DNA of 64,000 bases from Zingiber officinale. Lineage: Eukaryota; Streptophyta; Magnoliopsida; Zingiberales; Zingiberaceae. How positions within the stretch are numbered: the stretch's first letter is position 1; every line of letters starts with the position of its first letter. Shown piece by piece: positions 2,516 through 60,464 of this stretch. The notes below the pieces were generated by a model. The model was not told where the DNA came from. It made no database searches and saw only the letters and a program-made list of their open reading frames with translations. Where the stretch lies: positions 19,314,877-19,378,876 of the forward strand of contig NC_055992.1 in assembly GCF_018446385.1 (NCBI RefSeq), read 5' to 3'. Both the position numbers and the translations under genes were made by a program.

Positions 2516-3416
2516 TGTTGGACCCCGTAGTAGTTTTGATGTGATCAACCAAGTTGGTTAGGTCCTGCTGTGTTTGATCCCTGTGTCTGAGTGTGCAGGA
2601 GCTTAGGAACACAGGAAGTCGAGCGGAAGACGCAGCTAGCGAGAAGGACGGCACGGGAAGGGAGCCGACGGGCTCGGTGCGTCCGAAGGACGAGAGAGCT
2701 GCGGAAGAGTACTCCGGTGGGCGTGAAGAGCGTGCGCGGCGTTCGAGGGACGTTAAGCCGGGACGGAAGGCTGCTCGAGGAGAAGGCCGGGAATTGGGTT
2801 CGGGTGAGCCCTATTCCGGTTGGTCGCAATCACCTAAAAGAACGGAGCATAGGAAGCAAAAGCAAAAGAGCTGAAAAGAAGCTGTGCTGGATAAACAGCT
2901 CAAGGCGCCTTAAGCCTTGAAGGCGCCTTGAAGGTTGATGAAGGCGCCTTAAGCCTGGTCGATCTGACCGTTTGCGCTGCGGATAAAGTTTTATCCGCAG
3001 ATCGAGTTGGAGGCGCCTTAAACCTTGTTGAAGGCGCCTTGGACCCTCGAGATAGACTTTCCAGGAGCTATAAAAAGGCCCCTGGAGCTAGGAATTCAAC
3101 AACAACTCAAGCAATCAATGTGTAGCCATTCCTAGCAATAGTTCTAAGCTTCCAAAGTGTAAAAGGCTTCTCCGCCTTCAGCAAAGGAGATTTTTCTACT
3201 GAGCTTTTTCTTACTGCCCTGGATTAACAACCTCCTTGGTTGTAACTAGGTTAAATCCTGTTTTCTACTTAATTTCTATTTCCGTGCTTGGTTTAATTTT
3301 ATTTCTGCCTTTACTTTATTTACTATTGCATTAATTGAGTTGAAATCCGAGGAGGGTATTTTTATTTTGTGTTTTCAGCAATTCACCCCCTCTTGCCGGC
3401 CTCCGCTGCACCAACA
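2516..3416 (+). repeat. 5' LTR of element A (901 bp)
   Basis: The LTR runs from TGTTGGACCCCG to CTGCACCAACA. U3 carries five copies of the palindrome AAGGCGCCTT, or near copies, at about 2902, 2920, 2941, 3011 and 3031, followed by a TATA box (TATAAAAA, 3069-3076). It matches the 3' LTR closely except across about 2849-2958, where the two are unrelated or rearranged. Confidence 0.88.
3069..3076 (+). promoter_or_regulatory. TATA box of element A 5' LTR
   Basis: TATAAAAA follows the palindrome cluster by about 30 bp. It is the likely core promoter of the element, and the same word lies at 6176-6183 in the 3' LTR. Confidence 0.6.
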
Positions 3417-3418
3417 AG

Positions 3419-3430
3419 TGGTATCAGAGC
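3419..3430 (+). other. Primer-binding site of element A
   Basis: TGGTATCAGAGC lies two bases after the 5' LTR end. It is an exact complement of the initiator-Met tRNA 3' end used by most plant Copia elements. Confidence 0.85.
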
Positions 3431-3481
3431 CTGATCGCCTCAGAAGGACTAACCGCCAACTGAAGCACTACGATCAAGACG

Positions 3482-4894
3482 ATGGCCGGAGCGAACATCC
3501 ATCCCCCGAAGTTCGACGGAGACTTCGCCACATGGAAGCGCAAAATGGAGGTATTTTTTAAAACAGACTTTGATATTTTAATTACTATGAAATATGGTTT
3601 TGCAGCTCCTAAAGACAAAGAAGAAAACACGTGGAGCAAAAAGGAGCAAGCAGATTTCGTCGCCAACGGAAAGGCTGAGTTCCACCTACTCAGCGTTCTG
3701 CCGCCGCAGGAGGTAAACCGGATCGGAAGCTACAACTCCGCGAAAGATCTCTGGGAAAAATTCCTGGAACTTCACGAAGGTACCTCCGAAGCGAAGCTAG
3801 CAAAGCGCGACATCCTCCGGAACCAGTTGACGAACCTCCGGATGAACCAAGGTGAGAAGGTAGCGCAACTCCAAGCGAGAATCAAGGAGCTGATAATGCA
3901 ACTAACGAATCTTGGAGAAGAGGTAACCAACTGGGACTCTATCCGGTACGCGCTCAATGCCTTCCCGAGAACTCCAGAGTGGGCCTCCTTAGTAGATGCA
4001 TACTACATCTCTAAGGACCTCGAGGTAAGTACGTTAGAACAGTTATTTTCGACTTTTGAACTTCACGAATCTCGAGTTTCAGAGCCAAATGGAGTAGAGA
4101 AGACCGGTCAGAACATAGCTCTAAAGGCAAAAGTAATCGGTTCTGACTCCGAAGCCTCGGGCGATGAATCCGAAGCAGCACTACTGGTAAAACGGTTCAA
4201 TAAGTTTTTTAATTCTAATAAATTTAGATCGCAGAAAAAGAGGCATCAACAAAGAAAAAGGACGGTTCGCTGCTACAACTGCAACGAAGAAGGGCACATC
4301 AAGGATGACTGCCCGAAATTAAAGAGAAAGGAGAAAGAAAGGGAAAAATCAAAAAGCAAGAAACCAGAATCCTCCAAGCACAAGAACCTGAAGGCTACTT
4401 GGTCAGATTCATCATCCTCCGAGTCAGACATCGAAGAATTCTCGGGACTAGCACTGATGGCCAACCATCAGCTAGAAGAAACGTCTAGCTCAGAAATGAG
4501 CATAGATGAAGGGGGAGGAACATCAGAAGGAGAAAGCAATGATGAAGGGGGAGCATCGCAAGATGAGGTAAGTAAGGTACGTGCCCTAAACTCTAAACAG
4601 TCTTTTGAGTTTATTAAAGCTTTGTCTAAAGAATTAGATCAATTAGAAAAAGAAAATAAAATTTTGAAATCTGAAAATAAAAATCTAAAATTAGAAATTG
4701 AGAAATTAAGAAATAGTACATGTTTAAATAGATTTCCAAATTCAAAAATTAAAGTTTATGGAAAATTGAACTGGTATATTAGAAACCATCAGGGCCAGCT
4801 TAGAAGGATACCCAAAAATTATATACCCCCTAAGTATCTGAATAACCCTGTAGGTAGGAACCTCTATTGGGTTCCAAAATCTGTGCTTAATTAA
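3482..4894 (+). CDS. Gag protein of element A
   Basis: An intact 470-residue frame starts at the ATG 52 bp after the primer site. Residues about 1-210 are a Copia-type gag (UBN2/DUF4219 style) with W-rich text such as FATWKRKMEVFF and LWEKFLELHEGTS. A Lys/Arg-rich stretch precedes one CCHC zinc knuckle at about 261-274 (CYNCNEEGHIKDDC), which in this family binds RNA. An acidic Ser-rich region and a coiled coil (about 375-415) follow. The end, NLYWVPK, resembles text found just before protease in long Copia polyproteins; here the frame stops there. Inference: it forms particles whose enzymes come from another element. Confidence 0.85.
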   Translation: MAGANIHPPKFDGDFATWKRKMEVFFKTDFDILITMKYGFAAPKDKEENTWSKKEQADFVANGKAEFHLLSVLPPQEVNRIGSYNSAKDLWEKFLELHEGTSEAKLAKRDILRNQLTNLRMNQGEKVAQLQARIKELIMQLTNLGEEVTNWDSIRYALNAFPRTPEWASLVDAYYISKDLEVSTLEQLFSTFELHESRVSEPNGVEKTGQNIALKAKVIGSDSEASGDESEAALLVKRFNKFFNSNKFRSQKKRHQQRKRTVRCYNCNEEGHIKDDCPKLKRKEKEREKSKSKKPESSKHKNLKATWSDSSSSESDIEEFSGLALMANHQLEETSSSEMSIDEGGGTSEGESNDEGGASQDEVSKVRALNSKQSFEFIKALSKELDQLEKENKILKSENKNLKLEIEKLRNSTCLNRFPNSKIKVYGKLNWYIRNHQGQLRRIPKNYIPPKYLNNPVGRNLYWVPKSVLN

Positions 4895-5557
4895 TTTTTC
4901 AAAAATTAAAAGCTTGCAGTGAGAAAATTAAATATTGAAATTCTTTATGGAAGCTTTGTCTAAGGAAGTGGTTGTTGCTCCAATAACCAAGAAGGCCTAG
5001 TGCCTCGCCACGACCTGGAAGCTAAAATATTGAAAAAAATGTTTAATTAACTACGAAAAACATTAAACTAGAATTAAATAATGCTTTAAAAGTTCTTAAA
5101 TCTATTCTTCAGATTGTGAAAATTCAAAAATTTAAATTTGACTTAGAAATTTTTTTATTGACTTAGAATTTTTTTTAAAATTCAAAAATTTGACTTAGAA
5201 ATTTTTTTTGGAAAAATTCATATTGACTTAGAAAATTTTTTTTGAAAATTCAAAAATTTGACTTAGAATTTTTTTGTTTGGAAAAATTCGTTTTTGAATT
5301 AGAATTTTTTTAAATTCTATACATTTCACTTAACTTAGGTTATTTTTTTAACCCCATTTTTGCTGTGATCAAAGGGGGAGAGAAAAATACAAGTTTAGGG
5401 GGAGTTAGAAAATTTTGAAATTTCTGTTATTATAAAAAGTGTTGCAATTTTACTAATTGCAAAAAATTATGCTTAACTTGTTAGTTTAGTAATTTTTTCT
5501 TTAAAATTACTTTTTATGTCTATTTTAACCCTAACTTGAACTTGGGTTGATGCACAT
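4895..5557 (+). other. AT-rich non-coding internal tail of element A
   Basis: No reading frame of note. The tract has repeated blocks built on TTCAAAAATTTGACTTAGAA between about 5120 and 5300, and two short runs containing GGGGGAG near 5376 and 5397. It replaces the protease-integrase-RT region of an autonomous Copia element. Confidence 0.7.
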
Positions 5558-5558
5558 C

Positions 5559-5572
5559 AAAAAGGGGGAGAT
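5559..5572 (+). other. Polypurine tract of element A
   Basis: AAAAAGGGGGAGAT lies directly before the 3' LTR. Such a purine run primes plus-strand DNA synthesis. Confidence 0.8.
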
Positions 5573-6524
5573 TGTTGGACCCCGTAGTAGTTTTGATGTG
5601 ATCAACCAAGTTGGTTAGGTCCTGCTGTGTTTGATCCCTGTGTCTGAGTGTGCAGGAGCTTAGGAACACAGGAAGTCGAGCGGAAGACGCAGCTAGCGAG
5701 AAGGACGGCACGGGAAGGGAGCCGACGGGCTCGGTGCGTCCGAAGGACGAGAGAGCTGCGGAAGAGTACTCCGGTGGGCGTGAAGAGCGTGCGCGGCGTT
5801 CGAGGGACGTTAAGCCGGGACGGAAGGCTGCTCGAGGAGAAGGCCGGGAATTGGGTTCGGGTGAGCCCTATTCCGGTTGGTCGCAATCACCCAAAAGAAC
5901 GGAGCTTCGGAAGCTAAAGAGGAGAAGAAAAGAAGACAAAAGAGGCTGAAATTACTGTAGCAGAAATTACTGTAGCAGTAACCTTGAAGGCGCCTTAAAC
6001 ACATTGAAGGCGCCTTGAACACATTGAAGGCGCCTTGAATGATTGTTTAAGGCGCCTTGAGCAGTCCAGTTTGACCGTTTGCGCTGCGGATAAAGTTTTA
6101 TCCGCAGATCGAGTTGGAGGCGCCTTAAACCTTGTTGAAGGCGCCTTGGACCCTCGAGATAGACTTTCCAGGAGCTATAAAAAGGCCCCTGGAGCTAGGA
6201 ATTCAACAACAACTCAAGCAATCAATGTGTAGCCATTCCTAGCAATAGTTCTAAGCTTCCAAAGTGTAAAAGGCTTCTCCGCCTTCAGCAAAGGAGATTT
6301 TTCTACTGAGCTTTTTCTTACTGCCCTGGATTAACAACCTCCTTGGTTGTAACCAGGTTAAATCCTGTTTTCTACTTAATTTCTATTTTCGTGCTTGGTT
6401 TAATTTTATTTCTGCCTTTACTTTATTTACTATTGCATTAATTGAGTTGAAATCCGAGGAGGGTATTTTTATTTTGTGTTTTCAGCAATTCACCCCCCTC
6501 TTGCCGGCCTCCGCTGCACCAACA
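5573..6524 (+). repeat. 3' LTR of element A (952 bp)
   Basis: It has the same ends as the 5' LTR. The central block, about 5906-6070, differs: two ATTACTGTAGCAG copies are followed by four AAGGCGCCTT palindromes in a new arrangement (5987, 6007, 6027, 6049), then the two shared copies. Outside this block only a handful of single-base differences are seen. Confidence 0.88.
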
Positions 6525-6530
6525 CTACAG

Positions 6531-6660: not shown

Positions 6661-8588
6661 AATAAACATATTATTTAGTATTCAGTGCAATTCATATGCA
6701 TGCAATTTATGATTGCCTCAAAATTATTTTGAGTTGGTTTACAAAATCAAGTGATAACTAGGTTTCCATTCATCATTTGTATGGTCCAATCAAATCAACA
6801 TTGATCGATACTATTACATATATCCCAACATATGAATTAATTATTGTTCTATCATGATTTCTTTAATTAAATGAACTAATCATTTTTTATGTATCATGTA
6901 GAGTAATCAACATATGAATGAACATATCATTCATATAAACATGCCGCATATGTTAACATATAACAAATGGACATGAACTAAATGGACTAATACTGTTCAT
7001 ATATAATGACAGTAACAATAACAGAACTCTTACAAATGAGACAGGCTGACACCACTCCCACTAAGACAGACACTGGTGCAGTGACCAACATAGTCCCCTT
7101 CAATCTGGACTCATTTGAGACAATCTCAGATAGAACAATTTCAAGATTTTCAATTTGATATATCATTGAAACTTCTTCAGAATCCTCTTTAGATTCTTTA
7201 GGATCCTCCTCTGGATCCTTCTCAAATTCTTCAAGATCTTCCTCTAGGAACTCATGGTTAAGTAGCTCCACACATAACTGTGCATATAAGGTTCTCCCTT
7301 CGGAGAGCCTCCATATCTGGTGTACTACCACCTTAGGATTCTCCGGTAGTGAATGAATCAACGCCCAGATCCTGTAATTATCTAGGATTGGAAACTCTTC
7401 TTATTCGAGTTTCTAGGATTGGTAATCATTCGTGCCAACTTTAAATTGAAATTAAATAAATTAGTACAAAACCAACTAACCAGTACAAAACCGGTTTTAT
7501 TTAATTTATATATAGGCATGGAACCAACATTATTAATCAAGAAAAACAAATCTTCTTGATTTTTAGGAGTCTAAATCGACTGATCCATTTGATCGGTTGA
7601 TTAGGAATCCAGATCCTGAGCTCTGTCCAATGTCCTCATTAGAACTAATCTAACTGGATTGGGATTTCTTACCTATGTTATGTTAATCTAAGCACATTTA
7701 AGTCAATCTCAGACTTATTGATCAAACTCAGGTCCATTTGATCAATCCAATGCTTATTGGATTAAGTTTGACCCATTAGAACAAATCTAATCATTTTGGT
7801 TAAACCAACTTATGTAATCAAAATCATCCCAATTAATTCAATAATAAACCAAACTGGTTAAACTAACGAATGATTTGAACCAGATATAGGTATCATTGAA
7901 TTAAACTGGTCTGCTTAAATCAACTAATAATTTAAACTAGACCTGGGTTTGATTGGACAAGTTGGTCTCGTCCAATTTTCAATTAATTGAACCCTAAATT
8001 AATTTAATATATATTTATTAATTAATAATATATTTCATTATGTATTTAATTAATTAATAAATATATTTAATTAAATTTTACACATGCATGGTTTCACGTG
8101 TTTCTTTGTTTTTTGTTGTTGTTGTTGTTGTTGTTATTTTTCACTGTGCTTCGTCAAAATGAAACACGGTTTATCGTGTTTTTGAATCGATTAAAATTTC
8201 ATTCAATCGATTCAATTGAATCGAATCGATTGATTTAATCGATTAAGAATTCAATCAATACAGCTTCGTCATTTCAATCGTCATTTCAATCGATTAAGCT
8301 GTCATTTGAATCGATTAAAATTATTTTAATCGATTAGTTAATCGATTAAACTTCTTCTTTGTCGCGACTGTTTCTCTTCTTCTATGGCGACGAACGAGGT
8401 TGTCGTGATTGTCGATTGTCGGCCTCCTCACGTGGTCACCGACACTCTCCGGCCACGGAAGTCGATAGCCAACAACCTCTCAGGGCTCGACAACTGCGGT
8501 AGATCATGCCCCAGTCACGATCTCACCTGGCGAAGGCGACTGAGAGATTTTCATTTCGACGAAGAGACCAGTTTCATGCTTAGGCATC
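6661..8588 (-). other. Long C1 leader between primer site and gag
   Basis: This 1.9-kb AT-rich stretch separates the C1 primer site from gag, which is long for a Copia leader. A minus-strand frame at 7361-6987 gives 124 residues with a very acidic middle (many Glu/Asp around EEDLEEFEKDPEED) and a hydrophobic C-terminal third that could be a membrane segment; I recognise no family. About 8170-8350 is packed with AATCGATT palindromes, and (TGT)n lies near 8113-8140. It may hide an older insertion, but I found no clear ends. Confidence 0.4.
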
Positions 8589-16800: not shown

Positions 16801-18652
16801 TTCATAATGACAATACCACCCCTCCCTAGTGAAGTTTAATTTCCCAACAAATAAGAATGCATACTAAAAGTTAACATAGTAATTAACAATGATAAAACAT
16901 AATTAATTGGTAGTTTATACTAATAATATAAAAGGCAAAGACAATGCTAGTATACGATAGATTCTACTTATACTTGCAAATTTCATATAAAATAGTGAAA
17001 TGTTTACGTCTCTATATATAAAAAAGGTATTTAGTAAGATGTTACTCAATAACAAATTAAAATAGAAATAATATGTTTTATTTTAATCTACGACTTGATA
17101 CCCAATTCACACATTAAGGCTTTCAATTTTTTTTTGATGGAGCCTACTTGCCTATTTTCGTGATGAGTTTTAATCAGTACCGACGGAATGCCAGTGTTAG
17201 GATAGGTATGAGTTAAAGGGGATAAATTGTTCGTTTCATTTCTGTGAACTTGATTTGTAGCAAAAATTTAATAATTTTATAATGTTAACATTTGAATTTA
17301 TTTGATATTCATCTCTTGAGGTGATTAATTAAAGGTCCATTTCTCACACACAGTATACATTATGAAAACCTCCTTTTTAAAAATAATCCGGAAGTGAAAA
17401 AGTCTCGTATAAAACCGGACACAAGAATACAACAAGAGAAGCAAAGGCAAATATAAATACAATCGAAAATGATTTTTACAATAATGAAATCTTACTTAGC
17501 TTACTATCTTATTGCTTAAAAATGCCTCTTGTTAGAAATATAACAGCACTTCGCCTTAAACTTCTCAAGAACTGACGACTTCAAAATATTATAAAACTCC
17601 CTTTTCTAAGATTTCTCTCCGGCTAGAAAATACCTTCCAATCTATTGGTCTGACCCCAATCAATTTTCAAATTATAAGATTGACTACTCAAAACCTATAT
17701 AATGACTCTTTTTCGTCCATCCAATCGATTGATACGTCATACCAATCGATTAATAGCTTCTAATTGATTGACCTAATAGATTTAGAAACTTTTTGTTCTT
17801 CGCAAAAATACTCCAATCGATTGCCTCAATCAATTGTCTTAAGTCTAATCAATTGGCCAATCGATTCAAACCCTCATTGTGCTCTTGTGAAAACACTCGA
17901 ATTGATTGCCTCAATTGATTGGCCTAAGCCCAATTAATTGACTCATCGATTCCGGCTCTCACTGTGCTCTCGTGAAAAAGCTCCTAATCAATTAGCCTAA
18001 TTGATTGGACTTTGACTAATTGATTACCCAACCCTAAACTTTGAACCCAAGTTTATTTGCCCAATCCTAGAGTCATCCATGACTCATTGGAACTTTCCAT
18101 TACCAATGGGATGTCGAGTGTTAGGACAGGTATGAGATACAAGGGGGATAAATAGCTCGTTTCATTTCTTTTATTCTTTTCAATAATATAGAGACTATAA
18201 CTCTCTTCTTTCTTAGACTCCTTTCCCTTTTCTTTCTTTTCTCACTTCCATACTTCATACAAGAAGTATGAATTTATAGGATAAGATAAGAATGATGGTT
18301 ACTAACATTAGGGGTTACTAACCTTCATATAAATGCCCTATAGTGGGCATAAGTTATTTACATGTATGAATGCCCCATAGTGGGCATAAGTTACTAACAT
18401 TGATGAATGCCCCATAGTGGGCATAAGTTATTAACACTACCCACATGACCACTCCTGAATGTGGCCTCCTAATTCCATCTCATCTACTCTTGACATTATA
18501 TTTATAGCTAGATGTCCAGATGTTTCTATCTTTCATTAACTACTCTTGACACTTTAGATCATACTTGATACAATCTCCCATGTCACTTGTGACACCGAGC
18601 GGGATAATGATTATCCTGCGGTCTAATGAGAAAGAAGATTTGTGGAGAAAAT
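16801..18652. other. Repeat-derived intergenic DNA with AATCGATT cluster
   Basis: No gene seen. At about 17695-18010 there are many copies of CAATCGATTG or one-base variants. Two related segments built on TGTTAGGA(T/C)AGGTATGAG lie near 17196 and 18119, flanking that cluster. A 37-bp unit is present three times at 18329-18437, each with GCCC(C/T)ATAGTGGGC, a short hairpin. These look like parts of an old LTR, but I could not set ends. Confidence 0.4.
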
Positions 18653-21389: not shown

Positions 21390-23300
21390 ATAACTCGAGA
21401 GATGATACGATGCATGATTGTGGGGTCGGAGAGATAATGTGGTCAGAAGTCAAGCCCGTGGGATGATCAAAAGTCAAGCTCACACATCAGTCATAAGTCA
21501 AGCTTGCGTGGTGGTCAGAAGTCAGGTCTGTGTGGGGGTCAAGAGTCTGATCTATAAGGAGGTCAAGAATCCGGTTTACATATAGTTCAAAGGGCCCAGT
21601 TACAAGATGGGTTGGGTCAGGCACGAATGGGATCCCGGGGCTAGACCCACGTGCCAAGAACTTAGAGGCCAGGATTATAGGTCGGATGTGCCAACCAAGG
21701 ATACAGGTCAGGACCTATAGCCTTATGGCTCAGGATATATAGATCAACGCGTACAAGTTGGAATATATGAGCCAAGGATACAAGTCAGGACTTATAGTCT
21801 TACGACACTGGATATCCGGACAAAAGCGTACAGGTCGGGATGTACTAGCCAAGGATATAGGTCAAGACTTATAGTCTTATGTCACTGGATATCCGGACAA
21901 AAGCGTACAGGTGGGGATGTACTAGCCAAGGATACAGGTCAGGACTTATAGCCTTATGACAGTGGATATCCGGACAAAAGCGTACAGGTCGGGATGTACT
22001 TTACTAGTCAAGGATACATGTCAGGATTTAGGGCCTTACGACATGGAGTACATAGACAAAAGCGTACAAGTCAGGATATACTAGCCAAGGATATAGGTCA
22101 GGACTTATAGCCTTACGACATTAGATATTCGGATAAAAACGTACAAGTCGCGATGTACTTTACTAGCCAAGAATACAGGTCAGGATTTATGGCCTTACGG
22201 CATGGAGCACATAGACAAAAGCGTACAGGTCGGGATGTACTAGCCAAGGATACAGGTCAGGACTTATGGCCTTACGGCATGGAGTACATAGACAAAAGTG
22301 TACAGGTCAGGATGTACTAACCAAGGATACAGGTCAAGACTTATGAATCGGAACACACAGAGATTTACAAGTAAGGATGTATAGGTCAGGAAATGCAGAC
22401 CAAAGCATACAGGTCGCAACAGACGTACACAGGTCAGGACTCGAGATAAGTGGAAGTAAATTGAGGCATACAGGTCTGGAGGCAGAATAATCAGAACAAG
22501 ACTAAAGCATACAGGTCGCTATACAAGGCAAGGCGGGGCAGTGGCTCACAAGGCAGGTTAGTACCCACAAGTCGGGGTGAGCCAGTACGAAGACCCAATC
22601 CAGGATTAACAGGTCAAGGAAAGCAGACACTACACGACAAGCGAGTCAGGGAATCGTAACAACCTGTCAGGGAATAATCACCGCCTGTCAGAGAATATGC
22701 TAACGGTTTGATGTTCACCGCCCGCTGATTCCTTCCCAGACCTATAGGAGGACACCACGTGTCATTCACTGTCGGACAAAGCCTGACACCCGACATTCCC
22801 TGACACTTGACAGACTACAGAAACGTCCACAGCAGTATAAAAAGAGAGCCTTCATCCTTACGCAGGCACGCTCACTCGTCATTTCATACTCGTCTCTTAC
22901 TTTTCGTCCTTTCTCTATATTTTCTAGGGAAAAAGTATCTGACTTGAGCATCGGAGGGCCTGACCCGGGGACTTTTTTCCTAGTTTCTGGTCTCTAACGA
23001 CTCGTGGGCTCGTCGGGGTGTGCAGGACCCTTGCTTGGTCACCACCCCCCCGGTCATCCGCTCGTGTAAGCTTTTTCGACGGGTACCAGATCGTCCAGGC
23101 TTCGCAGCGACTTTCCGTCAACAACAGCGACAGCGCGACCCACCTTCATCCGACTCAGCTTCCGGACGGGATCAAGAGATATCTTCGATGGCCCCACTTT
23201 CTTCCAACTCACTGTGACTTTGTCAACATCAGTTGGTGCCCCTCACGAATAGAAGTCCTTTCTTCATTTACCCTAATGATCTTTGAGGAGTAACATGCGA
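21390..23300 (+). repeat. Gypsy-like LTR relic with internal tandem array
   Basis: The first half is the 77-bp array described separately. A TATA box (TATAAAAAG, 22836-22844) follows, then a pyrimidine-rich leader and CTGACTTGAGCATCGGAGGG near 22939. This layout, tandem array, TATA, then the shared motif, fits the U3-R-U5 of a Tat-type Gypsy LTR. The assignment is by layout, as no coding region was found. Confidence 0.5.
21700..22345 (+). repeat. Tandem array, 77-bp unit, about eight copies
   Basis: Each unit begins GGATACAGGTCAGGACTTAT and ends GATGTACTAGCCAA. Two units carry a 5-bp TTTAC-type insertion near the end. Each unit contains a half-repeat, because TACAGGTC(A/G)GGA occurs twice per unit. 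Related half-units extend on both sides (21420-21700 and 22345-22560). Confidence 0.85.
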
Positions 23301-50845: not shown

Positions 50846-51311
50846 CAATCAAAAGAGAGCGATGACACAAAGATCGAGGAATTACCCTTTTATGTGATAA
50901 CTAGTCTCAATTTTCTATTTTTTTTCTCTCAATAGTGTGGGGGTAGTAGTGGGCATGGACAACCCCACAAAGGGGCAAGGGGATGGGTCATAGAGGCTCC
51001 CATTTCCCCTTCTCTGTCGTGCTACTCCTACTCAGCAGAGTGTCCGTGATAGCGATTGGGTGTCACTCAGTTCCCCATAACCACCAGTGCTTGGTGGATA
51101 TCACTGTCAAACCGTTGTATCTTGGGAAACAGACGACCCGAGTAAGCCTCGAAGCACAGCCGGATGTGGAAGCGAATCAGTTTCAAGGAAACTACGACTC
51201 TCGCAGGCCTCGATCAGTTTCCCCGATCGATCTCTTCGTCCGCCCGATCGAGCTGTCTGCTCGTCCGGTCTATCTTTCGCTAGACCTTTCTACTCGCCCG
51301 GACTACCTTTA
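50846..51311. other. Intergenic, no recognised gene
   Basis: Mixed-composition DNA leading into the minisatellite. No supported coding frame. Confidence 0.45.
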
Positions 51312-51590
51312 GAGTGCTCTGTCAAGACTGCTCTGTCAAGACTGCTATGTTAAAACCTGCTCTGTCAAGACTGCTCTGTCAAGACTGTTCTGTCAAGACC
51401 TTCTCTGTCGACTGCTTTGTCAAGACTGCTTTGTCAAGACTGCTCTGTCAAGACTGCTCTGTCAAGACCTGCTCTGCCAAGACTACTCTGTCAAGACCTG
51501 CTCTGTAAAGATAGCTTTGTCAAGACTGCTCTGTCAAGACTTGCTTTGTCAAGACCCGCTCTGTCAAGACCTGCTTTGTCGCTCTGCAAC
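51312..51590. repeat. Minisatellite, unit CTCTGTCAAGACTG
   Basis: About 18 copies of a 14-15 bp unit (CTCTGTCAAGAC followed by TG or CTG) with small variants. Open frames on both strands are a by-product of the repeat. It lies just upstream of C2, perhaps within its worn 5' LTR, which would end at TTCTAACA near 51786. Confidence 0.85.
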
Positions 51591-51815: not shown

Positions 51816-53742
51816 ATGGGCATAGAACGGAATGTTTAGGTGCAACAGACTCAACACGTGCAGGCCCCCTCCGCCCCAATTGAAACTGTGTCAATTAACC
51901 ATGGGGGAAAACCAGAGAAGTTCAGTGGACTGAACTTCAAGAGGTGGCTGTTGGAGCAATCCCAATGGTCCGCGAGACCATGTGTTTTGGTGTTTGGGCA
52001 AAGGGTTTAAGTTAGGTTCACCCTTGTATTTGATATGTGTATTTGAGTTATGCAGGTTTGCAGGATACACATGTGACTCAGGTTGATGGCTTCGGGTCCG
52101 GTGAAGGATGGAGCATCCGAGGGACCGTGGACAAGGCAGCGAGGGCAAGGGCCGAGGGAAGCGACTTCGAGGCATACGCGAAGGATGGCATTGGGGACGA
52201 GCCGCGGGCTTGAATGCATCCGAGGGACGAGAGCCAAAGGAAGTAGGCTTGAAGGCAAGAGGTCAAAGCTGCAAAGGAAGCGTCAAATGAGTCGTAAGGG
52301 TGAGGGTACGAGTGCATGAGAGATTGTACTCGGAGTAAAATCCTAGTTTTAGGGGTTCACTGTAGCGACACTGTAGCAGTACTGTAGTGCTACTGTAGCA
52401 GGACTGTAGCAGTCGACTGCATGTTTTAGCAGTCGATTGATGCAATCGACTAGAGCAGTCGACTGGCAGCGAACAGAATGTCTCTGTTCGTATGGAATCG
52501 AGCCGTTGGGATGTAACGGTCGAATTTCCACTGAGGGCAGTCGACTGCATGTTTTGGCAGTCGACTGGTAGGCGGGGTTTTCAATCCGCGGCCTATATAA
52601 CCAAAGCTTGGGAGCTTGGTTAGAGTTGACGAAATAGAGGTGGTTAACCCCTATTAGTAGTCTACCTGTGCCCTAGCTTGTAAGAAGTTCTTGTGAGAGT
52701 TGTGGTGAAGTTTCTCCATCCACAAGGAGCTACGTGAGCTAGCCGGAGGTCTTCCGGGGAGTAATCCACCGACGGATAGGGATCGTCCACCTTACGGACA
52801 CGCCGTGGAGTAGGAGCTTTATCTCCGAACCACGTAAATGATCGTGTAGCTTGGTTTGCATTCTTTCCTTTAGTATTTAGCTTTCTACTTGCTTTGTTTG
52901 CATTTCCGCTTGCGCACTAACATTGTAGAAAGAAGCGCTTATTTGGGGGCGCCGTCTATCCAACCCCCCTTCAAGCCGGCCGTCCGATCCCCAACAAGTG
53001 GCAGTAGAAGATGGTCTTCTACCTGACCACACTCAACTTGGCTTGGTTCTTGACCGAAGACCCTCCCAAGCGTGCTGAGGATGCTGATACGTAGACCATC
53101 AGTGCAGTGGAGGCATGGACTCATTCTGAGTTCCTTTACCGAAACTACATCCTCAACTGCCTTACCGACTCGTTGTACGTTGTGTATAGCATGAAGAGAA
53201 CGACTAAGGAGCTGTGAGAGTTCCTGAACAAGAGGTACAAGACGGAGGATGCAGGGGTCAAGAAGTTCATCGTGGGTCGATTCTTGGACTACAAGATGGT
53301 TGACTCCAAGACAGTGATCAGCCAAGTCCAGGAGCTTCAGATGATCTTGCACGAGATCTACTGAGAAGGGATGGTTTTGAGTGAAACCTTCCAGGTGACT
53401 GCTATCATTGAGAAGCTGCCTCCCGACTGGAAGGATTTCAAGAACTACCTGAAGCACAAGCAGAAGGAGATGAATGTGGAGGAACTCATTGTTCGACTTC
53501 GCATCGAGGAAGACAACAAGAGTTCAGAGAGAAAACTGTTCTCTCAAGCTACTATGAAAGCCAACGTGGTCGAGCACGGTCAAAGCTCGAAACGAAAGAA
53601 TCCTAAATCTTCCAAGATGGGACCCAGAGGAGTCATCAAGAAAAAGAAGTTCTATGGGAAGTGCTTCAATTGTGACCGAGTGGGTCACAAATCTTCGGAG
53701 TGCAGGAAGCCGAAGAAGAAGCAGGAGGCTAACCTGAACTAG
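51816..53742 (+). pseudogene. C2 gag, split by a solo LTR
   Basis: The N-terminus (KPEKFSGLNFKRW) is at 51905-51948 and the sequence resumes at 53003 with KMVFYLTTLNLA-like text. Stops occur near 51834, 53090, 53216 and 53361. From 53371 the frame is open and ends with a CCHC knuckle, CFNCDRVGHKSSEC, near 53665-53705. A TAG follows ANLN. Confidence 0.82.
51949..52996 (+). repeat. Solo LTR with CAGTCGACTG palindromes, inside C2 gag
   Basis: Runs from TGTTGGAGCAATCC to CCCCAACA (1,048 bp). The target duplication GTGGC is at 51944-51948 and 52998-53002, with one extra A at the right junction. U3 has five ACTGTAGC-type repeats (52365-52420), then CAGTCGACTG palindromes and variants at about 52410-52567, then a TATA box (CTATATAA, about 52593). 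Removing it restores the C2 gag frame. Confidence 0.85.
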
Positions 53743-54253
53743 GGACCAGAAATAGACGACCTCTGCGCTGTGGTCTCTGAGTTGAACCTAATTGGTTTAA
53801 ACCCGCAGCAATGGTGGATCAATACTGGAGCCACTAGACATATCTACTGCAATAAGGAACTGCTTCACAACTTTAAAGAAGTCACTGGAGACAAGTTGTT
53901 CATGGGGAACTCAGCAATCTCGGACATCATGGGCCAAGGAAAAGTGGTGATGAAGATGACCTCGGGCAAGGACCTTACTCTGAATAATGTGTTGTATGTT
54001 CCGGAGATTTGGAAGAATCTAGTATCCGGATCATTGTTAAGCAAGCATGACTTTCACATTGTCTTTGAGTCGGACAAAGTTGTATTATCCAAGAATGGAG
54101 TATTTGTAGGAAGGGGCTATGTATCTAATGGGTTGTTTAAACTCAATGTAATGATGATTAGGCCTAAGATAAATAGAACTGAAAGCTCTTCCACTTATAT
54201 GCTTGAGTCTTCGTGTTTGTGGCATGGTAGATTAGGACATGTTAACTACGATG
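53743..54253 (+). pseudogene. C2 protease and GAG-pre-integrase segment
   Basis: The protease motif reads WWINTGATRH. The catalytic Asp of D(S/T)GA is replaced by Asn, a GAT to AAT change, so the enzyme is dead. The segment goes on to LYVPEIWKNLVS and the pre-integrase text LWHGRLGHVNYDV, where the second solo LTR inserts. Confidence 0.82.
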
Positions 54254-55946
54254 TGATAGATCGAATAGAGATGGAGAATATACATTACACCTTTTAAAAC
54301 TTCTCTTTTTCTTTGAAAGTAGAGTTGTGCACAATAGAAAGTAAAGAGAAAGACAAACTTGTTTACTTCGTTCGGAGTCTAGGTCGACTCTTACTCGAAG
54401 GCCCGCGATCCTTGATCGCACCGATGGGCAATCTACTATAACCCTTCTTCCCAAAATCCTCGGAAAGAAGCAGAACGTACAAAATGAGCAAGATAGTAAC
54501 AACCTACTATCTTGCTTAAGTTAATTACAATGCAAGCTAATAAAATATACCGACAAGTAATAGAGTTGAAGCTTTGGTCGGCACTATCGGACGGAGTGAC
54601 TTGCAGAGCTGATGAAGACTTGTAGCATGAGTAGCTTGCAGAACAGAACTTCAGTCGATCAGAAAGTGTTACACAGCCTCAAACCTCGAGCCTCTTTTTA
54701 TAGGTGTAATGGACGTTCGGCCGATCGATCCCTCTGTTCGGTCGACCGAACCAGCTCCCTTCCTTCCTAGCTGGAGTCTGACGTTGGCTCGATCTTCTGG
54801 CATTAATTGCTAATTAAGGGTCTGGTCGACCGACCCCTTTGTTCGGTCAACCGAATAAGCTCCTTCCATATTCGTCGAGATTTGCCGAGATTCGCATTTA
54901 CTGTACATTTAATATTGATCGTTCGATCGACCGATCCGTGTAGTTTCCTTCTGCTCCTGATCGTTGTTGTCTGTGCTGAGTCATCAGGGTTCGGTGGGCA
55001 GATCCTACGATTCGGTCGACCGATCATGGATTGATCGAACTCGGTCTGTTCTGGTCTGATCTGAACACTACTTTGATCTCTTCTTCTTCGGTCGACCGAT
55101 CCTCCGGTTCGGTCAATCGATCCAGCTAGACCTATAACACAGTATTAGACAAAAAAGAATCCTGCAAAATAGATGTTAGCACAGTAATAATATTATAATG
55201 CATGAGTAATATAAAAGATAGTAGAATTGTCTTGATCTCAACTTTGAAACCATCCCAATTTCTTCAGTTGGATCAACGACCTTAGGTTGTTCCCTGCAGG
55301 AATCCGACCTCATTGTCGCTCCGCTAGTTGTTTACCTCAACTTACCTGCCAAACATGGTCCTCCAGACATGTTTGGACTTTGCCTGTTCAGTGTCTGATC
55401 ACCTGATCTACTAAGACATTTCCTGCAATACTATATTAGCCAACGCAATAATAGTAATACAGAATATAATGGTAAACCTAATCCTAGATTTACCGAGATC
55501 CGCTGGTCCGGTCGACCGCGCGCGGTCGGCCGGAAACCATCCTATCAACTTTTCTTGGAGTTCACTTTTCCAAGACTTCTCGTTACCTAAGTTATCTCCC
55601 CCTAGGGTTTTCTCCGCCTGACTTCACTCATAAAACTCAGTATTCGGCTACTCAGGGATCATGTCTTCCAAACCTATCCACCTGGCTTCCACGATATACC
55701 GAGATTTCCCTTGCCTCAGTATTCGACTACTCAAGGATCAGGTCCTCCAGACCTATTCACCTGGCTTCCACGATATACCGAGTTTTCCTTGCCTAGCCTC
55801 CAACTAGGACTTCCCTTACCTAGCCTCCAACTAGGACTTCCCTTGCCTAGCCTACAACTAGGACTTCCCTAGATCAAGCTCCATACTTAAGCATACTTAA
55901 ACATATTTGTCTAACATTAAAACCTTAGAGGTCGATTGCACCAACA
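54254..55946 (-). repeat. Solo LTR with TCGGTCGACCGA palindromes, inside C2
   Basis: Minus orientation, 1,693 bp: TGTTGGTGCAATCGACC at 55946 to TCGATCTATCA at 54254. The duplication CGATG is exact (54249-54253, 55947-55951). Its R/U5 part (about 54300-54430) is homologous to the LTR of element B, with shared GATCAAGGATCGCGGGCC and the same TCGATCTATCA end. U3 carries about six TCGGTCGACCGA-type palindromes (54730-55120), then a TATA box (TATAAAAAG, minus, about 54694-54702). A tandem block with CTAGCCTCCAACTAGGACTT lies at 55790-55870. Confidence 0.85.
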
Positions 55947-55951
55947 CGATG

Positions 55952-56490
55952 TATTGCGTAGATTAATTATTATGCAAAGCATACCTACATTCCACCTTAA
56001 CCCAAAACACAAGTGTGAGATTTGTGTTGAAACGAAAATGATAAGGTCATCCTTTCAACATATTGAAAGAAGTAATGAACCACTTGACCTAATCCACACT
56101 GATGTGTGCGACCTAAAAGATACACCAACACGTGGTGGTAATAAATACTTTATCACTTTTGTAGATGACAACATAAAATATTGTTATGTGTATCTTCTCA
56201 AAAGTAAGGATGAAGCTATAGAGAAATTTGCTCTCTATAAGAATGAGGTTGAAAACCAACTTAATAGGAAAATTAAGGTGGTTCAAAGTGACCAAGGAGG
56301 TGAATATATATCACCGTTTGCTGAGTTGTGTATTAAACATGGGATCAGACACAAAACAACAGCTCCTCATACTCCTCAGCAAAATAGAGTTGTTGAGCGA
56401 AAAAATCAAACTATAAAGGAGATGATGAATGCTCTTCTATTGAGCTCTGGATTGCCAGAGTCCATGGGAGGGGGGGGAGGGAAGTTGTGT
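55952..56490 (+). pseudogene. C2 integrase
   Basis: After the solo LTR the frame gives the zinc-ligand text CEICVETK and the core motifs DLIHTDVCD, VQSDQGGEY and QQNRVVERKNQTIKEM. All three acidic D,D-35-E positions appear present. A poly-G expansion near 56467 shifts the frame and ends it. Confidence 0.82.
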
Positions 56491-56612
56491 TAACAGCTAA
56501 TTACCTTTTAAATAAGGTACCCTGGAAGAAAATAGATAAGAGCCCTTATGAGTTATGGAATGGAAGACAATCGTCCTACAAATAGTTACGAATATGGAGG
56601 TGTTTTGCCAAA

Positions 56613-57959
56613 GTGTTGGTGCCTGATCCGAAAAAGAATAAGGTAGAACCAAAGACTGTTGATTACATATTTATTGGATATGCACAAAACAACACTATGT
56701 ATAGATTTTGTGTGTATGAGTCACACATACCGGAGATACACAAGAACTCGATAATTGAATCGAGAAATACCTCGTTCTTCAAGCATGTGTTTCCATATAA
56801 GAACCGGGAGGATACTAGCTCCTCAAAACGAGCAAATGAAACACAAGGCGAAGAAGATGAAGATGATGATGAGGAACCTGTGGAGGTTGAGCCTAGACGG
56901 AGTAAAAGAGTTCGGGTAGAAAAATCCTATGGCTCAGATTTTATCATTTTCATGTTGGAGAGTAAGCTCCGAATTTACTCAGAAGCTGTAGGCTCTTCTG
57001 ATAGACCTCATTGGAGAGAGGTAATTGCATCTGAGATAAAATATATCTTGTAAAATCACACTTGAGAACTTGTGGATCTTCCTCCGGGAAGTAAACTACT
57101 AGGTTGCAAGTGGATTTTCAAGAAGAAAATGAAATCAGATGGCACGATCGATAAGTATAAGGTCATATTGGTAATCAAAGGATACCGACAATGATAAGGC
57201 CTCGATTACTTTAATACATATTCTCCGGTGTCAAGAATAACTTCTATTAGAGTATTGTTGGTTATTACCGCTCTATGGAATCTCGAAATACATTAAATGG
57301 ATGGAAAGATTACCTTTTCAAACGGGGATTTAGAAAAAAAAATATACACAGAGCAACCTGAGAGGTTTTCTATGCTAGGACAAAAAAACAAGGTATGTAG
57401 ATTGGTGAAGTCATTATATGGCTTGAAACAATCACCAAAGAAGTGGCATGAAAAATTTGATAATGCCATGAAGGAATGTGGATTCAAGTTCAATAAATGT
57501 GATAAATGTCTCTACATGAAAGTCACAGAGAGTGACTATGTCATCTTGTGCCTCTATATAGACGACATACTTATCATTGGAAGTAATGATAAGATAATAA
57601 AATCCACAAAAGGTATGTTGAGCTCAAGATTTGATATAAAAGACATGGGCCTAGCTGATGTGATTATAGGAATCAAAATTCTTAGAATAACAGAAGAACT
57701 TGTTCTTAGTCAGTCCCATTACGTAGATAAAATTCTTGAGAAATTCACCAAGGATGATACTGCGTTGGCACGAACACCGATAAATATGAGTCAACATCTA
57801 TCAAAAAATCAAGGTGAAAGTATTTCTCAGCTAGAGTACTCTCGAGTGACTGGAAATCTGATGTACCTGATGAGTTGTACACGACCAGACTTGACCTACG
57901 CAGTAAATAAACTGAGTAGATACATGAGTAATCCCAGTGTTGAGCACTGGAAGGGATAA
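56613..57959 (+). pseudogene. C2 reverse transcriptase
   Basis: An acidic linker (EEDEDDDEEPVEVEPRRSKR) leads into RT text. Stops at about 57051 and 57194-57200 and one before 57297 break the fingers region. The open part 57297-57959 holds the catalytic CLYIDDILIIG, then SLYGLKQSPKKWHEKF-like thumb text and YLMSCTRPDLTYAV. Confidence 0.85.
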
Positions 57960-58555
57960 CAAGAGTTCTGAGGTACTTAAACTATACTCATGAATATGGT
58001 TTACACTATACGAGATATCTTGCTGTGATCAAAGGATACAACGATGTAAGTTGGATATCTGATATAAAAGACTCTAAGTCTATGAGTGGATACGTATTCA
58101 CTCTAGCAGGTGCAACCATTTCTTGAAAATCTTCTAAACAAATCGTAATAATCAGATCCTCGATGGAATTTGAGTTTGTAGCTCTTGACAAATGTGGTGA
58201 AGAGGCTGAATGACTACGACAATTCTTAGAAGATATTCCTAGATGGCCAAAACCTGTGTCGATAATTTGCATATATTGCGATAGTCAATAAGCAATTGAT
58301 CAGGCACAGAGCCATCTGTATAATGGTAAGTCTAGACATATATGTCATAGATATAATACCATTAGACAACTACTTTCCACGAGAGTTATCATTGCTGACT
58401 TTATGAAGTCGAAGGATAACCTAGAAGATCCACTAACCAAAGGGTTAAATCGAGAGTTAGTTACAAGATCATCACGAGGAATGGGCTTGATGCCGTTGTC
58501 AGCGATCAGTGCAGAGGACACCCAACCTATGCTGACTGGCAATCTCAAGAACTAG
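57960..58555 (+). pseudogene. C2 RNase H, broken
   Basis: Readable RNase H text includes [35 protein letters not shown] and ADFMKSKDNLEDPLTKGL, covering the acidic catalytic positions. At least three in-frame stops are present. Confidence 0.78.
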
Positions 58556-59004
58556 GTTCAAAGGGACAACTAATCTGTACTGACTAGACACATTGTGGGG
58601 GATAGTCCAATGAAACATTAACTAGATGAGGGTAAGCTGATGAACTTTTAATGATCAAGAAGAGTATATGACAACTCTTGAGGGATCACCTATGTGAGAA
58701 AGAAGTGAGGGCGCTTCGAAGAGAATTGGAGGCATAATTCTTAGAGCTTCTTACAGAACTAGGCGTGTTCATGGCCAAGAACGAACATACTCATGAAAAC
58801 TGAGTTGTATCAGGGAGAGTCTTGGGGTGAGATTTGTCACTGCTTACACAGACGACAGTATAGTTCACGGGTATCGTGTCTACTATCAGCCAGTAAGCAA
58901 CCAGATCTTCACAAGGGAAGGTTCAAAGGGTAAAACCTACCTGTCTTATACTTGATTCAACTGTTGAATGCTATCACATGCCTATCTCCATTTATGTGGG
59001 GGAT

Positions 59005-59298
59005 TGTTGAATATAGGTGAATGGAAAAGAGGTGGAAGAGGAAAGAGGCTCCATTGTAAATGAGACTTTAGTCCCACATTGGGAGTTTCATGGCATGATG
59101 GTTGGTTTATATTGATTCACATGCATTGAGGATGTGAACAAATGCATGGGGAGAGTCTCTCTCTCATGCGTGGGTGCGCAGGGGGTGCAAATCCAGGGCC
59201 CGGATTTGCACTGAACCATGTTGACTCGTGTGCGAGCACGACCTTCGCGCGCCGAATATCGGACTGGTCAGGGCAAAATTCGCCCAAGTGGAACAACC
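59005..59298 (+). repeat. C2 3' LTR, truncated by element B
   Basis: It begins TGTTGAATATAGGTG just after the purine run and includes TTTAGTCCCACATTGGG, common in plant Copia LTRs. The rest should lie beyond element B, outside the window. Confidence 0.7.
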
Positions 59299-60450
59299 TG
59301 TTGGTGCGGGGAGCATCCGACGATTGAACATGAGTTTTGATAATGGCAAAGGATTCAAAGTTAAGGTTTGTGGTGATCTAACGTGTTGAATAAGTGTTTC
59401 AGGAAAGTCCTAGCTGCGGTTAGGCAAAGGGAAAATCCTAAGGGGTGGTAACCTTAGGTCCTAGGGGGCGGTAACCCTAGGTGAGGGAAAACCCTAAGGG
59501 GCGGTAACCTTAGGTCCTAGGGGGTGGTAACCTTAGGTCCTAGGGGGCGGTAACCCTAGGTGGAGGAAAACCCTAAGGGGCGGCAACCTTAGGTCCTGGG
59601 GGGTGGTAACCCTAGGTGGAGAAAATCCCTAGGGGGCGGTAACCCTAGGTCCTAGGGGGTGGTAACCCTAGGCGAAAAGTCCAGTCAGTCTGGAGGACCG
59701 GACTGGCATCAGGTAAATCTCCTTAGTGGAGTAGGTGAGGACGCGTTCCCCGTAGAGGGAACAGTAGGCGTCGGGTCGACCTAGGGTTTTCGGTTGGAAA
59801 TCCGAAGTCAGACTCGGACAGTCGGAAGACTGTCAGCTCTTTTTCACTTATGAACTATCAGATTCTAATATTGTCTTGCAGGGTATGCAATTGCTCGGAC
59901 TAACCTTGTTTTGCAGGAGAAGCGACTCCTGGAAAAAGGAGGTCCGGGCGCCCGGGACCAACTTTTATCCCCTGCGCGATTTCGCGACGTGGAGCAACCT
60001 GGTTGGCTGGCCACGTCACACTCCAGGCGCCCGGAAAGGTCCCAGGCGCCCGGAACCTCATATAAAAGGAGGGTTGAGGTGCAGCTTTATAAATAATAAT
60101 CTTCTAAGCATTCTCCGTGCGACAAGTTGCTAACGTCTCGACTCAAAAGTGCTGCAACGACAACCCGGAGCTTCAGTTTTAGTTTTTTTATTGTCGGTAC
60201 AATATTCTTTACTGCTTAAATTGTACTTAGCTTGTAATAGCTTTTACGAATTATAGTTGTTGCCCACCGGAAGCGATCAAGGATCGCGGGCCTTCGAGTA
60301 GGAGTCGTCACAGGCTCCGAACGAAGTAAATCCTTCATGTCCACTTTATTTACTTTCCGCTGCGTTATTTCTGAACAAGCTTTTACGATTTCGAAAAAAG
60401 AAATAGCCACGAGCGCTATTCACCCCCCCTCTAGCGCTTTCGATCTATCA
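59299..60450 (+). repeat. 5' LTR of element B (1,152 bp)
   Basis: Ends are TGTTGGTGCGGGG and TCGATCTATCA. U3 has a minisatellite (59415-59680), then GGCGCCCGG-type palindromic words at about 59946, 60026 and 60045, then a TATA box (TATAAAAG, 60061). R/U5 is homologous to the solo LTR at 54254-55946. Confidence 0.82.
59415..59680 (+). repeat. Minisatellite in the element B LTR
   Basis: Alternating units GGGGCGGTAACC(C/T)TAGG and CCTAGGGGGTGGTAACC, with about 10 copies of GGTAACC(C/T)TAGGT in total. CCCTAGG words give a telomere-like look, but the unit is not the plant telomere repeat. Confidence 0.8.
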
Positions 60451-60452
60451 AT

Positions 60453-60464
60453 TGGTATCAGAGC
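60453..60464 (+). other. Primer-binding site of element B
   Basis: TGGTATCAGAGC, two bases after the LTR, complements the initiator-Met tRNA. Confidence 0.85.

Follow-up and report, generated by a model that had tools for sequence, protein, structure and literature searches.

Introduction

Sireviruses (Ty1/copia) form a large share of many plant genomes. Tandem activator boxes lie in the U3 of Tnt1 and other plant Copia elements, and the palindrome region of the maize Sirevirus long terminal repeat (LTR) was reportedly taken up by Bousios et al. in 2016. Here we describe short palindromic words in the LTRs of ginger (Zingiber officinale) Sireviruses, centred on a 64-kb stretch (the window; 19314877-19378876 on contig C7) of a 3.09 Gb, 211-contig assembly. 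The window holds two elements, A and B, and two solo LTRs, S1 and S2. Same-word copies are paired about two helical turns apart. The haplotype-resolved ginger genome has 11 pseudochromosome pairs and 3.1 Gb (PMC8342452); the accessible part of the published account puts Copia at 33.66% of the genome and does not name SIRE.

The closest described system is the Sirevirus repeated motif (RM), palindromic boxes that lie upstream of the TATA box in the LTR and delimit a CpG island, with one word per element (Bousios et al. 2010, PMC2829016). In its accessible portions, to which our statements about this and the other cited papers refer, the 2010 paper reports a CGG-CCG signature in all but one of 13 RM words (the exception is Tnd-1), mentions the symmetry of Tnt1 box I, and leaves the binding partner and the purpose of the palindromes open. 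Maize accounts that cite a 2016 study (PMC5311732, PMC10760457) describe the palindrome region as variable, folding and attractive to small RNAs, and Sireviruses make up 21% of the maize genome (PMC10760457).

The ginger palindromes share with the RM the many-copy boxes before the TATA box, the AGGGGGAG polypurine tracts and the C-rich integrase signal (PMC2829016). The S2 word has the Vitis RM word CGGTCGACCG as its core, and the Tnd-1 word ACAATCGATTGT resembles the ginger ATCGAT words (PMC2829016). Unlike most RM words but like Tnd-1, those of A, S1 and the ATCGAT families have no CGG-CCG signature, and A, B and S1 have fewer copies per LTR. The maize region is alike in being a palindrome-rich cis region of high sequence variability and strong folding, but has a different word, CACCGGACNNNGTCCGGTG. 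By description, the U3 boxes of Tnt1-type plant Copia elements are also alike, being repeated cis elements upstream of the TATA box. The part proposed in the initial annotation of this DNA is not novel and matches the known RM; it is a known kind of part with variant words and a sharper rule than the accessible accounts give.

What goes beyond the accessible RM accounts is a common spacing of 18–22 bp for most listed close pairs of five words, words that are rarely mixed, and disagreement between the word and the R/U5 region. In the open-licence literature we found no mention of spacing, word exclusivity or R/U5 disagreement for the RM (accessible portions of PMC2829016), none of spacing or word exchange in the accessible portions of the maize accounts (PMC5311732, PMC10760457), and no helical-spacing account for palindromes. 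Because our literature coverage comprises open-licence papers only, we make no claim that the points on spacing, purity and exchange are unpublished. The shared spacing rule, the rarity of mixed arrays and the few cores provide a fingerprint for comparison with small RNAs or with the transcription factors of the host.

Palindromic words in the window LTRs

Element A has its 5′ LTR at 2516..3416 (forward strand), with AAGGCGCCTT at 2902, 2920, 2941 and 3031, GAGGCGCCTT at 3010 and the TATA box at 3069. Its 3′ LTR lies at 5573..6524 (forward), with AAGGCGCCTT at 5987, 6007, 6027, 6049 and 6138 and GAGGCGCCTT at 6117; AAGGCGCCTT or its one-mismatch form occurs five times in the first LTR and six times in the second. 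The solo LTR S1 (51949..52996, forward) carries CAGTCGACTG at 52410, 52456, 52538 and 52558 and CAGTCGATTG at 52430, and TATATAACC stands downstream of these palindromes. In the solo LTR S2 (54254..55946, reverse) TCGGTCGACCGA and its variants are found at 54717-55120. The 5′ LTR of B (59299..60450, forward) has CCGGGCGCCCGG at 59944 and AGGCGCCC at 60025 and 60044; perfect GGGCGCCC is present only at 59946, and the copies at 60025 and 60044 have one mismatch.

A palindrome cluster in every LTR, as initially annotated, is borne out for A, S1 and S2 and is weaker for B, which has one perfect GGGCGCCC and two one-mismatch copies. For S1, S2 and the two LTRs of A, the count of the top palindromic 8-mer exceeded all 1000 dinucleotide shuffles, whereas for B 932 of 1000 shuffles reached or surpassed the count of the top perfect palindromic 8-mer; we therefore rejected B as a clear case from exact word counts. 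The core GGCGCC, present three times in B, exceeded all 200 shuffles. The placement of the clusters upstream of the TATA box holds throughout: across the five window LTRs the nearest word lies at a distance of 13–41 bp.

Other parts of the initial annotation need correction. It had called the palindromes unrelated, but A and B share the core GGCGCC, S1 and S2 share GTCGAC, and there are few cores overall. The R/U5 ends of B and S2, said to be homologous, align over 81 bp at 88% only (B against the S2 relative L081: 113 bp at 82%). A CG or GC centre had been given for every word, but ACCGATCGGT, an extra word in the LTRs L142 and L144, has an AT centre. The pairing of the copies had gone unmentioned, as had two further clusters with AATCGATT, at 8185-8345 and 17722-17866. 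The stretch 8185-8345, outside the assigned LTRs, holds eight AATCGATT copies, several of them 18–21 bp apart; at 17722-18010, CAATCGATTG and decayed forms lie partly within an 85-bp tandem array, and this word is close to the Tnd-1 motif.

The window LTRs A, S1, S2 and B belong to Sirevirus (Ty1/copia) elements. The polypurine tract AGGGGGAG beside AT/TG at the 3′ LTR, with extra upstream copies, is present in A and in the S1-family copies L002, L004 and L008, and the C-rich integrase signal with the primer binding site TGGTATCAGAGC is present in A, B and the S1 relatives L003, L006 and L007. The pattern CACCCCC-N15-45-TGGTATCAGAGC has 18,660 + 18,691 = 37,351 places in the genome (reversed control 0). 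S2 is tied to Sireviruses through its U3 relatives L120 and L126, both retrieved by the Sirevirus pattern; no C-rich signal is evident in S2 itself. The core CGG-CCG signature is present in S2 (TCGGTCGACCGA) and B (CCGGGCGCCCGG) and absent from the words of A (AAGGCGCCTT) and S1 (CAGTCGACTG), which are for this reason variants and not strict RM members. The RM standard is at least eight copies per element; LTRs of the S2 family mostly have 7–10 near-copies (extremes 4 and 12), those of A have 5 and 6, the S1 family has 6–7 and B has 3 (linker copies left out). One S2-family LTR, L108, has no TATA box and a single four-mismatch match.

Few cores, a common spacing and rarely mixed words

We examined 40 U3 stretches, comprising 35 of 100 listed Sirevirus LTR ends and the five window LTRs, two of which come from one element (A); the 35 were selected to cover diverse U5 tails, and the resulting word catalogue therefore does not sample the genome at random. 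Enrichment for one of three cores was found in 24 of the 40, namely GGCGCC (11), ATCGAT (8) and GTCGAC (5). Other palindromic hexamers reached at most two LTRs each, except CGATCG (five LTRs, in four of them alongside ATCGAT). Distinguished by their outer letters, the words include AAGGCGCCTT, GAGGCGCCTC, CCGGGCGCCCGG, CAGTCGACTG, TCGGTCGACCGA, CAATCGATTG and GGATCGATCC. A lineage mostly uses one self-complementary word from this small set. For L144–L148 the sequence further upstream was also examined, outside the core count. A 28-nt perfect palindrome, built from merged ATCGAT words, lies in L134:1-421.

The nearest word centre is 13–33 bp upstream of the TATA box in 11 of the 16 LTRs that have both. 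Spacing was sampled on one contig, taking for each word the first 50 places listed, with an allowed range of 17–25 bp for GGTCGACC and 13–43 bp for AGGCGCCT, AGTCGACT, GGGCGCCC and AATCGATT. Within these samples, 18–22 bp separated the copies in 47/50 places for GGTCGACC (mode 21), 35/50 for AGGCGCCT (mode 21), 33/50 for AGTCGACT (mode 20), 37/50 for GGGCGCCC (mode 19) and 33/50 for AATCGATT (mode 19, with 21). The spacing p-values count related copies as independent, but by loci more than 20 kb apart an 18–22 bp pair was found in 20/23, 16/18, 17/22, 17/21 and 21/22 for the five words. The S2 family, 30 LTRs including the window copy, has 107 of its 115 word pairs that are less than 30 bp apart at exactly 21 bp and three at 20 bp, and its commonest slots begin 25/46, 129/150 and 230/251 bp before the TATA box. 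The spacers themselves vary: among 45 GGTCGACC pairs spaced at 21 bp, the central five spacer letters come in 30 distinct forms, with a mean pairwise identity of 0.345.

A gap of 50–105 bp between words is seen in 21 of the 28 LTRs given a word, and in 19 of these 21 it measures 60–89 bp. The usual layout is a pair near the TATA box, a gap of ~60–89 bp, and then another word or pair. The gaps contain CCACGTGG in the B-like LTRs L115, L137 and L143, CCACGTCA in B, and AACGG or CCGTT in A, S1, L116, L121, L124 and L134, which we take to be candidate G-box or MYB sites.

Genome-wide, with 5–35 bases between words (9–17 for GGTCGACC), same-word pairs number 80,828 for AGGCGCCT (reversed control 13), 39,272 for AGTCGACT (650), 36,023 for GGGCGCCC (239), 37,218 for AATCGATT (5573) and 16,024 for GGTCGACC (9). 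Mixed pairs of AGTCGACT and AGGCGCCT, the only combination counted, number 15 + 26 = 41 in the two orders (reversed control 8 + 8). We therefore rejected unit-by-unit mixing of words as a route of change, mixed pairs being rare in this combination.

Replacement of the palindrome block and disagreement with R/U5

The two LTRs of A differ, outside a ~180-bp block, by just two substitutions and one 1-nt indel. Inside the block (2835..2964 in the 5′ LTR and 5892..6071 in the 3′ LTR, both forward), the spacers are unalike and the word is identical. Of 40 full-length copies scored for the 3′-type LTR, the 39 others are 96–99% identical to it, and the closest other copy found for the 5′-type block is 92% identical. 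The element is bounded by the 6-bp direct repeat CTACAG (2510-2515 and 6525-6530), and as these flanking repeats are intact, the block was most likely replaced after insertion, through conversion by a copy that was lost or not sampled. Smaller changes are also seen. Among seven LTR pairs of A relatives, defined by distance and strand, two differ by exactly one 17-nt unit (these two diverge by 8–9% in the left flank), and word slots in the S2 family are shifted by 21 bp.

In an R/U5 tree of 12 rows, four of them from the 35 sampled LTRs, L127 (word CGGTCGACCG) groups with L112, L117, L137 and B, all of which have GGCGCC words, and apart from S2. Forcing L127 with S2 was rejected (p-AU 0.0164), as was forcing A with L117, both of which have AAGGCGCCTT (p-AU 0.019); these values are indicative, because the word of L127 was already known when it was chosen and the branches of S2, A and S1 are long. 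Stars mark three of the nine inner branches of this tree, and its long branches are flagged. Palindrome identity and R/U5 phylogeny, which the initial annotation proposed to compare, disagree in both cases checked, and lineages with related promoter ends can apparently carry different words. As the source of the L127 word we rejected a U3 transfer from S2-like elements, since the U3s have no more than a 33-bp pair segment in common. The modular promoter part initially proposed stands as regards the replaced block in A and the disagreement of word with R/U5; a swap between B and S2 themselves is not supported, given their weak R/U5 homology.

Discussion

We put at roughly 0.5 the probability that the palindromes, as variant words of the repeated motif in Sirevirus LTR promoters, act as cooperative dimeric sites for host proteins. 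Cooperative dimer binding on DNA is suggested by the link to the TATA box, by a spacing of two turns that is kept while the spacer sequence varies, and by how rarely a pair mixes words. Each palindrome would be occupied by a host DNA-binding protein as a dimer, and a pair of dimers on the same helical face would cooperate beside the TATA box, driving or repressing transcription. Different lineages would use different dimer specificities. The arrays would turn over as single word-plus-spacer units are gained or lost and as one copy converts a block in another, and an occasional exchange of promoter parts between lineages would leave the same kind of R/U5 ends with different words. Of the roles suggested initially (dimer-binding sites, hairpin RNA and symmetric methylation targets), dimer-binding sites appear to fit best. 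We offer more tentatively the idea that the word is an exchangeable identity code, with few words per host, laid out at two turns, unmixed and swappable while R/U5 stays, which might set a homotypic partner, either a protein dimer pair or same-word RNA.

Several observations weigh against cooperative dimer sites. Sixteen of the 40 U3s lack enrichment for the three cores. The nearest word is 41–67 bp from the TATA box in 5 of 16 LTRs, among them S2, whose proximal copy is a decayed word. Secondary spacings occur, of 13 bp in 7 of 50 AGTCGACT places and of 12 bp in ATCGAT families. The GGTCGACC arrays also contain GATCGATC/TCGATCGA forms, set apart by C>T/G>A changes, which we read as decay but which may be a second word. 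Copies vary mostly through C>T/G>A decay, and no selection for symmetry is seen. The fixed spacing could come in part from descent by unit duplication. Finally, the arrays fold very stably as RNA, so that selection at the RNA level could give the same picture.

This last point makes RNA hairpins a serious rival, possible though doubtful as the main account, in which hairpins from paired palindromes in LTR transcripts would serve the element or feed small-RNA silencing by the host. Folding z-scores are -7.1 and -10.9 for A, -7.5 for S1, -2.8 for S2 and -4.2 for B, against -0.8 to 0.1 for three R/U5 controls, and small RNAs of maize Sireviruses concentrate on palindrome-rich LTR regions (accessible portions of PMC5311732 and PMC10760457). 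Palindromes, however, fold by construction, and a position next to the TATA box is not demanded by RNA structure. In 240 units we found no covariation across the dyad (9 complementary mirror doubles versus 13.9 expected) or between partner words (13 versus 12.65 expected), and no wobble preference, C>T changes, which keep G-U on the sense strand, numbering 89 versus 111 G>A, although this test is weak because most copies are decaying. A hairpin role fits partly, with strong foldability and neither covariation nor wobble preference.

Neutral turnover of tandem repeats, in which slippage duplicates a word-plus-spacer unit and families inherit the layout, would yield the 17-nt one-unit differences in two of seven LTR pairs and the 21-bp slot shifts of the S2 family. 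We regard it as unlikely to explain the whole pattern: the spacer middles are near random while their length is fixed, five words share the spacing range, mixed two-word pairs are rare and three cores dominate. The common spacing range also suggests, short of proof, that families whose arrays lack shared descent have the same spacing, which would count against neutral turnover.

A tag for RNA dimerization or co-packaging, with self-complementary words in the 3′ U3 of the genomic RNA pairing copies of the same family, would yield self-complementarity, rare mixed pairs, the same word on unrelated LTRs and block replacement. It leaves the close link to the TATA box unexplained, and retroviral dimer signals typically lie in the 5′ leader; such a tag is very improbable in our estimate. 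Slightly less probable still is a role of the words as symmetric CG/CHG methylation targets, by which the promoter would be marked or silenced. The words contain CG, and S2-family word changes comprise 207 transitions versus 24 transversions. CpG decay, considered as a sign of targeted methylation, shows contradictory trends: it agrees with the idea in A (10/174 within words versus 25/1218 elsewhere) and runs the opposite way in S1 (1/35 versus 49/371). Spacing and word exclusivity are left unexplained.

Other features of the window

Element A is a gag-only Sirevirus. Its primer binding site TGGTATCAGAGC lies at 3419..3430 and its gag at 3482..4894 (both forward); the gag, the sole listed open reading frame of at least 100 aa in 3400-5500, is of copia type, with Retrotran_gag_2 (E 2.2e-16) and a zinc knuckle. 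The terminal Sirevirus polypurine tract AGGGGGAG at 5563..5570 (forward) is followed by AT and then by the TG of the 3′ LTR, and extra AGGGGGAG copies stand at 5373 and 5397. B has its primer binding site TGGTATCAGAGC at 60453..60464 (forward), and its LTR has a 97% match 5.7 kb downstream, outside the window, which is probably the 3′ LTR of B. S2 is flanked by the target duplication CGATG (54249-54253 and 55947-55951) and sits within Copia-like sequence; by eye, 53000-58470, the host of the solo LTRs S1 and S2, resembles a degraded Copia gag-pol.

A tandem ACTGTAGCAG stands upstream of the palindromes in S1 (52358-52412) and in the A 3′ LTR (5948-5978) and is absent from the A 5′ LTR; it is a second small module common to the unlike LTRs S1 and A 3′. 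In the distal U3 of B, 59428-59672 holds tandem 23-bp units that have CCTAGG ends, and a lone GGTCGACC at 59774, possibly a relic of another word, recurs in nine of ten fetched relatives (L069–L078; no such 8-mer in L073). Just upstream of S1, a 14-bp tandem array of AGACTGCTCTGTCA runs for ~19 copies (51311-51580), and 77-bp tandem repeats occupy 21679-22344 in ~8.5 copies.

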